A DNA stretch of 46,102 nt from Chloroflexota bacterium (lineage in GTDB: Bacteria; Chloroflexota; Anaerolineae; Aggregatilineales; Ch27), in the NCBI GenBank assembly GCA_019873685.1, contig JAIOAT010000026.1:1-46102 (forward strand), read 5' to 3'. Each line of letters opens with the position of its first letter. Position 1 is the first letter of the stretch. The notes beneath the pieces were generated by a model. The model had not been told where the DNA came from and searched no databases. It saw only the letters and a program-made list of their open reading frames with translations. Positions 43,160-45,945 of this stretch are shown here, in pieces. Both the position numbers and the translations under genes were made by a program.

Positions 43160-45067
43160 TCAACGGGGCCGGTTGCGGCGGATGAATGCCCGCGGGTCGA
43201 CGTAATCGCGCAGCAGCCGCGCCCGATCCAGGCCAGGCCAGTCGTTGGGCTTGATGGCCAGTGCCTCGGTAGGGCTGATGTCAAAGTGCAGGTGTTCGGT
43301 TCCGCCGCGTGGTCGGCCAATTGTCCCCAGCGGCTCCCCCCGCCTGACCCGCTGCCCGATGCGGACGTTTACCGCTGCCAGGTGCGCCGAACGCGAATAC
43401 ACCACCGGCCCACCGGGAGTCAGGGGATCGTGGCGGATGATCACGATGTTGCCCCACAGGCCGGGGCTGCCCACATACACTACCACGCCGCTGGCAACAG
43501 CGTACACCGGCATCCCGGCATCGCGGTTCCATGATGGCCGGTTGAGGTTCAGATCGGCCCCCGTATGGTAGGCGGCGTTGCCGCCGCTATCGGTGTAACG
43601 GGTGCCGAAGCCGGTCGAATCCACCCACTCGCCGGGCCAGACGGCGTCGCCCCGGCGTTCCGCCAGCGTACCCACCGGCGGGTCAAAGCCATCGGCCAGG
43701 CCGGCGGGTGTATCGGCTGGCTTGTCGCTATCCTCATCAGAGGCAGGATCGACCAGCCGCCAGCGCAGTGCGCCAAAAGCGATCCGGCGGCCTTCTTCCC
43801 CGGTCAGGTTGGTCAGGTTGACCATGCCGCGCCGGGAATGCGACCCATCCAGCGCAAAGACGCCCAGCGAAGCCCAGGCGTCGTGGAATTGCCCCTGGTT
43901 GATCTCCACGCGCAGCGGCGCGGCGCACCCGGCCACCCCATGGATCGCGTAGCGCGCCCGGCGGGTATCGGCGTTGACACCCGGCACCCAGGCGGCAATT
44001 TCATAGATGCCGGGGGCCAGCGCCTCCGGCACCCAGGCCGCCCACACGCTGCTGCGGGCGCTGCTGGTCGGCGCACTTTTCAGGCGTTCCCCCCCGCGGG
44101 TGAACTCGCGAAAGCCGCCGGAAGCCCGGTCATAGACGCCGTCATGGTAGCCAGCGCTGCCTACCGTGATGATCACGCTCTCCGGGCTGGCCTGAGGCGC
44201 GGGGATCGGGTCAACCGGCGTTGCGGTGTAATCGTAAGCTGCCGCCGCGTCCCAGAGTTGCGTGCCCGGATAGTCGCGGTTGGCGCTGTCATTGCGGGCG
44301 TGCTGCCAGCTCCACAGGTTTACTGCCGGACAGCCCAGCGTTCTGGCCCGGTGCAGGAACAATGCGATCTGATCAGGCCGCGCCGACCAGAAAAAGCGCC
44401 CAGCGCCGGAACCGTAATACTCACCATAGGCCGAGCCGGTGGGGATGAAAGGCTTGCCGGGAAAAGCGGCGCGGTATTCCTGGTAGCTATCCTCCAGAGT
44501 GCGGACCGGATCGCCGCCATCCTGGGATGGCCAGTAGACCTGGGGCATGGCAATGTCGCAGGCGGCCATGAACGCCGCAAATGGGAAGTCCGGGTGCCAG
44601 CTGGGATAGCGGTAGGAGCTGAGCGCGGTCAACACGCCGCCGGACCCCCCCGCCAGATCGTTCCTGAGCGTTTCCATGAAGCGCCGGGCGCGGTCAGCGC
44701 CGCCGGGCGCTGACCACCGATAGCGGCCAAAGTCCTCAGCGTTGATCGCTACACCGGGCAACTCATACTGGCGCACTCGCGCCGCCAGCCGGTGGGCTTG
44801 CGCTTCCTGATCGACTTCGCTGCCATAGACGAATCCCCAGCCCCATACCGTGATCCCGGCCTTGCGGAAAGCGACGATCACGTCGTGCGTCAGGCGTTCC
44901 TTGCGGCCGTCTGGATCGGTAGCCGGGATGGGGTAGCTATACTCACCGTCACTCAGTTTGACCAGGATGTGCTCAATGTCCGCTGCACGGGCCAGTTCCA
45001 CCATCCGCGCCGGATGGGCTTCCGTGCGGTCGATCTCCCATAGCCACATCCCTTTGCCGCTGAGCAT
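43160..45067 (-). CDS. Glycosidase-like, golvesin and M23 peptidase fusion protein
   Basis: A 635-residue three-part protein. Residues 1-290 resemble a TIM-barrel glycosidase-type domain (MWLWEID, ILVKLSDGEYSY, GVAINAEDFGRY, IAMPQVYWPSQDGG). About 296-437 is a golvesin C-terminal-like beta domain (VWAAWVPE, YEIAAWVP). About 480-610 is an M23 (LytM-type) metallopeptidase. Its zinc ligands are His and Asp in HTGADLN and His in HLHFDI, with SAHL in between. The C-terminal part can cut peptidoglycan peptides; the N-terminal part may bind or cut glycans. No signal peptide is seen, which is odd for a wall enzyme. Followed after 26 bases by the NYN gene. Confidence 0.82.
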   Translation of the reverse strand: MLSGKGMWLWEIDRTEAHPARMVELARAADIEHILVKLSDGEYSYPIPATDPDGRKERLTHDVIVAFRKAGITVWGWGFVYGSEVDQEAQAHRLAARVRQYELPGVAINAEDFGRYRWSAPGGADRARRFMETLRNDLAGGSGGVLTALSSYRYPSWHPDFPFAAFMAACDIAMPQVYWPSQDGGDPVRTLEDSYQEYRAAFPGKPFIPTGSAYGEYYGSGAGRFFWSARPDQIALFLHRARTLGCPAVNLWSWQHARNDSANRDYPGTQLWDAAAAYDYTATPVDPIPAPQASPESVIITVGSAGYHDGVYDRASGGFREFTRGGERLKSAPTSSARSSVWAAWVPEALAPGIYEIAAWVPGVNADTRRARYAIHGVAGCAAPLRVEINQGQFHDAWASLGVFALDGSHSRRGMVNLTNLTGEEGRRIAFGALRWRLVDPASDEDSDKPADTPAGLADGFDPPVGTLAERRGDAVWPGEWVDSTGFGTRYTDSGGNAAYHTGADLNLNRPSWNRDAGMPVYAVASGVVVYVGSPGLWGNIVIIRHDPLTPGGPVVYSRSAHLAAVNVRIGQRVRRGEPLGTIGRPRGGTEHLHFDISPTEALAIKPNDWPGLDRARLLRDYVDPRAFIRRNRPR

Positions 45068-45208: not shown

Positions 45209-45907
45209 CTATAGCAGCCGATCTGGCGGCGGCGAGGCGGGCAGGGGGCGGATCAGATCGGGCACGTCGGTATGCGGACTGTTGACGGCTTTGGAGACTT
45301 CGTAGGCGGTTAAGGGCAGCGTCTCCAGCGGAGCCAGCAGGGGCATCAGTTCCAGCGGGTCCACGTCGCCGGGCGTCAGCCAGTCGTCCACAACGGCGCG
45401 GTCGAGGATCACGGGCATCCGGGAATGGATTGGCGCCATGAAGGCATTGGGGCGGGTGGTGACAATAGTGCAGGTGCGCAGCGCCTCCTCGCTGTGCGAG
45501 GGCTGCCATACCTCCCATAGCCCGGCCAGCGCAAACGGTTCGCCACTGGTCAGCCGGATATACATAGGCCGTCGGCGGCCATCCGGCAGGCGCTGCCATT
45601 CATAGAAGCCATCGGCGAAAATCACACAGCGGCGTCGCCGGAAGGCATGGCGGAAGGCCGGCTTTTCCGCCAGCGTCTCTGACCGGGCGTTGATCAGGCT
45701 ATTGCCAATGGTCGGGTCTTTGGCCCAGGCCGGGATCAGCCCCCAGCGGAGCAGCGTGGCGCGGCGGTGACCCTCGTTGGTCAGGGCCAGCACCGGCTGG
45801 GTTGGCGCAATGTTGTAGCGGGGAGCGTAACCGGCCGGGACAGACTCCAGGGCGAATGCCAGCTGAACGACTTCCGGGTTAACCGTCAGGGTAAAACGGC
45901 CACACAT
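45209..45907 (-). CDS. yedK: SRAP protein: SOS-response-associated DNA-protein crosslink enzyme (YedK/HMCES-like)
   Basis: A 232-residue protein of the SRAP family, which bonds abasic sites in single-stranded DNA covalently through Cys 2 and shields them. MCGRFTL at the start gives that Cys (initiator Met removed). YNIAPTQPV, WGLIPAWAKDP, INARSETL, GFYEWQ (the active-site Glu) and IHSRMPVIL (the His) are all in place. The start at ATG 45907 (GGAGG upstream) was chosen over a TTG- or ATG-extended reading because Cys 2 must follow Met 1. It has a TATAAT -10 and a LexA-type box in its leader, fitting induction by DNA damage. Confidence 0.95.
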   Translation of the reverse strand: MCGRFTLTVNPEVVQLAFALESVPAGYAPRYNIAPTQPVLALTNEGHRRATLLRWGLIPAWAKDPTIGNSLINARSETLAEKPAFRHAFRRRRCVIFADGFYEWQRLPDGRRRPMYIRLTSGEPFALAGLWEVWQPSHSEEALRTCTIVTTRPNAFMAPIHSRMPVILDRAVVDDWLTPGDVDPLELMPLLAPLETLPLTAYEVSKAVNSPHTDVPDLIRPLPASPPPDRLL

Positions 45908-45919
45908 CGCCCGCCTCCT

Positions 45920-45931
45920 GAACATTTGTTC
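45920..45931. promoter_or_regulatory. LexA (SOS) box of the SRAP gene
   Basis: GAACATTTGTTC is a perfect palindrome of the form GAAC-N4-GTTC, the core of the Gram-positive LexA (DinR) box. It lies between the -10 and the ribosome binding site, where a bound repressor would block the gene. Confidence 0.75.
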
Positions 45932-45939
45932 TTTCCCAT

Positions 45940-45945
45940 ATTATA
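45940..45945 (-). promoter_or_regulatory. -10 element of the SRAP gene
   Basis: A perfect TATAAT on the minus strand, nine bases upstream of the LexA box in transcription direction. TTGTGC lies 17 bases further up but is a weak -35. Confidence 0.6.

Follow-up and report, generated by a model that had tools for sequence, protein, structure and literature searches.

The box GAACAAATGTTC in the leader of an SRAP (YedK-type) gene was assigned as a predicted operator for the LexA repressor of this genome, with a probability of about 0.9. The assignment was based on sequence comparison, because the box is placed at a promoter, is conserved, and shares its motif with lexA and other repair genes. The window, i.e., the whole stretch of 46,102 nt that was analysed, carries the SRAP gene and its leader near one end (Table 1). 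The first-pass annotation had described a LexA-type box between a TATAAT and the ribosome binding site of a yedK-type gene, and this arrangement was confirmed at every base. In the orientation of the gene (minus strand), 8 nt separate TATAAT from GAACAAATGTTC, and 6 nt separate AGGAGG from ATG. The TTGTGC/TATAAT pair was not reported in a promoter scan of the leader; it fell below the scan threshold because just three of the six -35 bases match.

Table 1. Features of the SRAP leader and of other candidate LexA targets. Positions refer to the window unless a locus is given.
Feature	Position	Strand	Remarks
Predicted LexA operator GAACAAATGTTC	45931-45920	-	Read directly; GAACATTTGTTC at 45920-45931 on +
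-10 hexamer TATAAT	45945-45940	-	Read directly; kept in G001
Possible -35 TTGTGC	45968-45963	-	By eye; 17-nt spacer to TATAAT; 3/6 to consensus
Shine-Dalgarno AGGAGG	45919-45914	-	Read directly; abuts the box GAACAAATGTTC
SRAP/YedK-type gene	45209..45907	-	232 aa; Met-Cys start; PF02586, E 9.4e-74, residues 1-211 on profile 1-214
Membrane-like paralogues	L022:1096-2337 (C41), L026:1799-2509 (C57)		FNFATTEYAL motif, variable tail, YVDLD end
Small LexA-type winged-helix protein	L020:2196-2483 (C79)		Without peptidase domain; box identical to that of SRAP

The box lies just downstream of the -10 hexamer, probably at about +3 to +14. A LexA dimer bound there would cover the SRAP transcription start and block initiation. 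DNA damage would produce RecA-ssDNA filaments, LexA would then cleave itself, as its S24 domain suggests, and repression would end. The SRAP protein made at that point would form cross-links with abasic sites of single-stranded DNA and so shield them, if it has the activity expected of it.

The SRAP gene begins with ATG TGT GGC from 45907, and its protein opens with MCGRF. The PF02586 match covers the full-length domain, and structure comparison matched the protein to human HMCES and E. coli YedK. The segments NARSET, ADGFYEW and IHSRMP aligned with HMCES, and the catalytic residues are presumably Cys2 and the Asn, Glu and His. In its full-length domain, N-terminal Met-Cys and Asn/Glu/His segments the protein is like the SRAP/YedK/HMCES family, and no difference from the family was noted. 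The ORF list had placed the start at an ATG at 45925, inside the box. This start was rejected because G002 and G004 do not have the upstream ATG in frame and because Cys2 has to come directly after the first Met. A gene downstream of SRAP on the same strand (window 43160-45067) showed an M23 peptidase domain and a weak Golvesin_C match.

The lexA gene of this genome, one of those at which the annotation had proposed to look for the motif, has two sites. GAACTGCTGTTC is placed exactly between TTGACA and TATACT, and GAACTGATGTGC follows 35 nt downstream of it. In the 32 lexA leaders compared in the order, i.e., 29 loci (L187-L215) with G000 (this genome), G001 and G003, the strict box GAACN4GTTC was found within 220 nt in 30. 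A second site, GAACN4GTGC, was found in 24 of the 32, mostly 34-38 nt downstream. GTGC therefore was taken as a half-site, and a relaxed box, G(A/C)ACN4GT(T/G)C, was used; from these leaders, GTGC looks like a real LexA half-site. The proposal of a likely LexA motif for the whole genome was supported in that lexA, polA and a radical-SAM gene share it, but the motif needed widening to G(A/C)AC-N4-GT(T/G)C. A working LexA motif is thereby available for an order of Chloroflexota that is poorly cultivated.

The LexA protein of this genome matched TIGR00498 (E 6.1e-50) and consists of a PF01726 HTH domain and a PF00717 S24 domain. In the alignment, the segments GESM and TTTLK contain the Ser and the Lys, which we take to be the catalytic residues. 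The scissile pair in the family of this genome (f1) appears by eye to be Ala-Ser instead of the usual Ala-Gly, a small departure. In several families, the cleavage site was VASEP or AAS(A/E)P in place of Ala-Gly.

SRAP was present in all five f1 genomes and in 133 of 151 genomes of the order. The leaders compared were 95. Five were those of f1, 30 came from loci of the order search, and 60 were stretches picked to represent the other families together with part of f2; the order matches outside these 95 were nearly all from f2. The relaxed box was found in 25 of the 95 leaders, against 0.28 in shuffles. By family, the hits were 4/5 in f1, 13/14 in f4, 1/2 in f6 and 7/8 in f8. No relaxed box was found in the SRAP leaders of f2 (0/48), f3 (0/7) and f7 (0/11), which make up 66 of the 95. 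Because these three families are without the box, the predicted LexA-SRAP link is lineage-specific and not order-wide. Predicted DNA-damage control of SRAP in the lineage, as annotated, was supported, since the box is conserved in the f1 SRAP leaders and the motif is found at other repair genes; it does not extend to the whole order, as the 48 f2 leaders show. The abasic-site shield is thereby placed under predicted damage control in part of the order, on comparative evidence and not on analogy alone.

The identical 12-mer GAACAAATGTTC was found in four of the five family leaders, and the upstream sequence diverges between genera. The fifth leader (G003) carries GAACAAAAATTC, with one mismatch in a core base. 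In f1, the SRAP box ends 12-14 nt before ATG. Among 80 named relatives, no strict box was found in the 100 nt before the SRAP start, and one leader (L095, a record that also entered the census as G014) showed the form straddling the start codon. In some f2 SRAP leaders, GATAATTTGTTC lies about 70 nt upstream; it has two mismatches and was excluded from the counts.

In the sister families f4, f6 and f8, the box is placed over the start codon. The arrangement TATAAT-N-G(A/C)ACNN-ATG-TGC was found in 20 of their 24 SRAP leaders, and the box ends inside codon 2. GAACGTATGTGC, from a sister family, is a candidate LexA target. The f8 genome G052 carries GCACAAATGTTC upstream, at an f1-like position. 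Since only 7 nt lie between the end of the -10-like hexamer and ATG, the message of the start-straddling leaders looks leaderless from its sequence. The GTGC half-site of this operator includes the codon of the catalytic Cys2, and GTGC is also found at lexA site 2 of the same families. Tolerance of LexA for GTGC would let the catalytic Cys codon be coding and repressor-binding at once. The codon TGC was used in 20 of 21 start-straddling leaders and in 33 of 74 others (Fisher p 2.9e-5, relatedness uncorrected), and this preference is only suggestive. The single TGT among the 21 belongs to an f3 leader (L060), which has GCAC by chance and is without a -10. It is rather probable that in f4, f6 and f8 the operator is fused with the start of a leaderless SRAP message, that the Cys2 codon doubles as a LexA half-site, and that an undescribed SOS regulon lies around this operator. 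With the operator moved out of the leader and onto the start codon, these genes would illustrate how the same bases can serve repressor binding and encode a catalytic residue. A start-codon-straddling operator with the Cys2 codon was not found in the literature searched.

In the 4.1-Mb assembly, 45 matches to GAACN4GTTC were counted; the reversed pattern, used as control, gave 21. When the matches were sorted by longest ORF, the majority fell within ORFs, and nine sites, including that of the window, were taken as upstream sites. The genes were lexA, an orphan LexA-HTH gene, polA, a UDG-linked radical-SAM gene, two paralogous membrane-protein genes, of which one has two sites, SRAP, and a gene near the end of C38. 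For this last site (C38:35996, L023), no clear gene was assignable close to the contig end, and a 134-aa ORF given around it by the scripted ORF list was judged spurious. Short ORFs hold the sites at L006, close to a gene for an ABC transporter, and at L007, close to an rpoC-like gene.

The UDG-linked radical-SAM gene, which we take to be COG4277, was boxed (relaxed form) in 16 of 20 leaders, which represent six families and 20 of the 27 genomes with a match. The box mostly lies 25-37 nt ahead of the start. Its protein matched TIGR03916 (E 1.2e-73) at 248.6 bits, below the cut-off of 343.5. No UDG gene was found directly downstream of it on the same strand. The relaxed box was found in 8 of 20 polA leaders, the 20 being those of all genomes with a match; of the four family genomes with a match, three had it.

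The membrane-protein family was found in 7 of 41 genomes. Both paralogues are boxed in G000, G001, G003 and G004, and further loci of f5 and f6 showed the box at three of five, the short fragment L309 being left out. The paralogues on C41 and C57 had no Pfam or NCBIfam match and are candidates for an SOS checkpoint protein. With LexA boxes at both copies, this family is the foremost testable unknown of the regulon list. Together with the small HTH-only LexA relatives, it would belong to the same undescribed SOS regulon.

These small proteins, which have similar counterparts in many relatives, offer another explanation of the box. In it, the site would chiefly be occupied by the orphan LexA-like winged-helix protein, and SRAP would answer to a second, non-cleavable regulator competing with LexA or relaying it. 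The orphan gene carries the identical GAACATTTGTTC in G000 and G001 and is also boxed in G003, G038, G033 and G007. Its protein, about 80-95 aa, gives HTH-only matches to PF01726 and TIGR00498 and has no S24 peptidase. However, it is thereby also without the dimerisation/peptidase domain, and its box is equally explained if the orphan gene is itself a LexA target. The relaxed box was found at 6 of the 17 orphan loci and was not found at the other 11. We consider this explanation unlikely.

Binding by LexA was also weighed against a function of the palindrome in RNA, as a small hairpin beside the ribosome binding site. Folding gave a 4-bp GAAC/GUUC hairpin of -3.1 kcal/mol, but its stability was no better than that of shuffles (z -0.69). 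In the start-straddling leaders, GAAC cannot fully pair with GUGC, though GAAC and GTGC are kept, and at lexA the motif lies between -35 and -10, where transcription is not expected. The hairpin is therefore very improbable as the function of the box.

The window holds one exact GAACN4GTTC, i.e., the SRAP-leader box, with a mean of 0.26 in shuffled windows and at least one match in 24 of 100 of them. The motif match by itself is weak evidence, and the case rests on the position and conservation of the box. A chance match without function is the least probable explanation of all, given that three further genomes have the identical box in this position and that the pattern recurs at lexA and at further genes of DNA repair.

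In Dehalococcoides, also of the Chloroflexota, the LexA site is presumably GAACNNNNGTTC. GAAC-N4-GTTC is the Gram-positive LexA box (PMC3323433). The box here and that of Bacillus subtilis and Mycobacterium tuberculosis have the same half-sites, spacing, promoter overlap and presence at lexA, whereas GTGC/GCAC appears to be accepted here as second half-site (lexA site 2 and sister-family SRAP). SRAP (COG2135) was predicted or reported under LexA in Balneolaeota and Bacteroidetes, which are another phylum and have other LexA motifs, CTAA-N5-TTAG among them, and a UDG/COG4277 pair is also LexA-linked in Bacteroidetes (PMC8565304). Gene neighbourhoods had led to the proposal that the SRAP family is linked to SOS (PMC3765255). 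LexA control of SRAP is already reported in other phyla, and it is an ordinary kind of switch. In the literature searched, which reached few subscription journals, neither SRAP control by LexA in Chloroflexota nor this regulon in that phylum was described.

The first-pass annotation had also looked to recA and dinB homologues for the motif. No box was found in the dinB leaders searched; dinB is not under LexA in every lineage, and a box there does not define the LexA type. RecA (PF00154) was not found in the assembly of this genome, and a match was present in 40 of 41 compared genomes, 37 of these above the cut-off, so the absence is likeliest an assembly gap. The recA leaders of relatives showed the relaxed box in 12 of 26, eight of them strict, and those of the family members G001 and G002 showed only GAATATATGTGC. 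In G003 (C225), a single 556-aa open frame contains the RecA match in two parts, an intein-like pattern.
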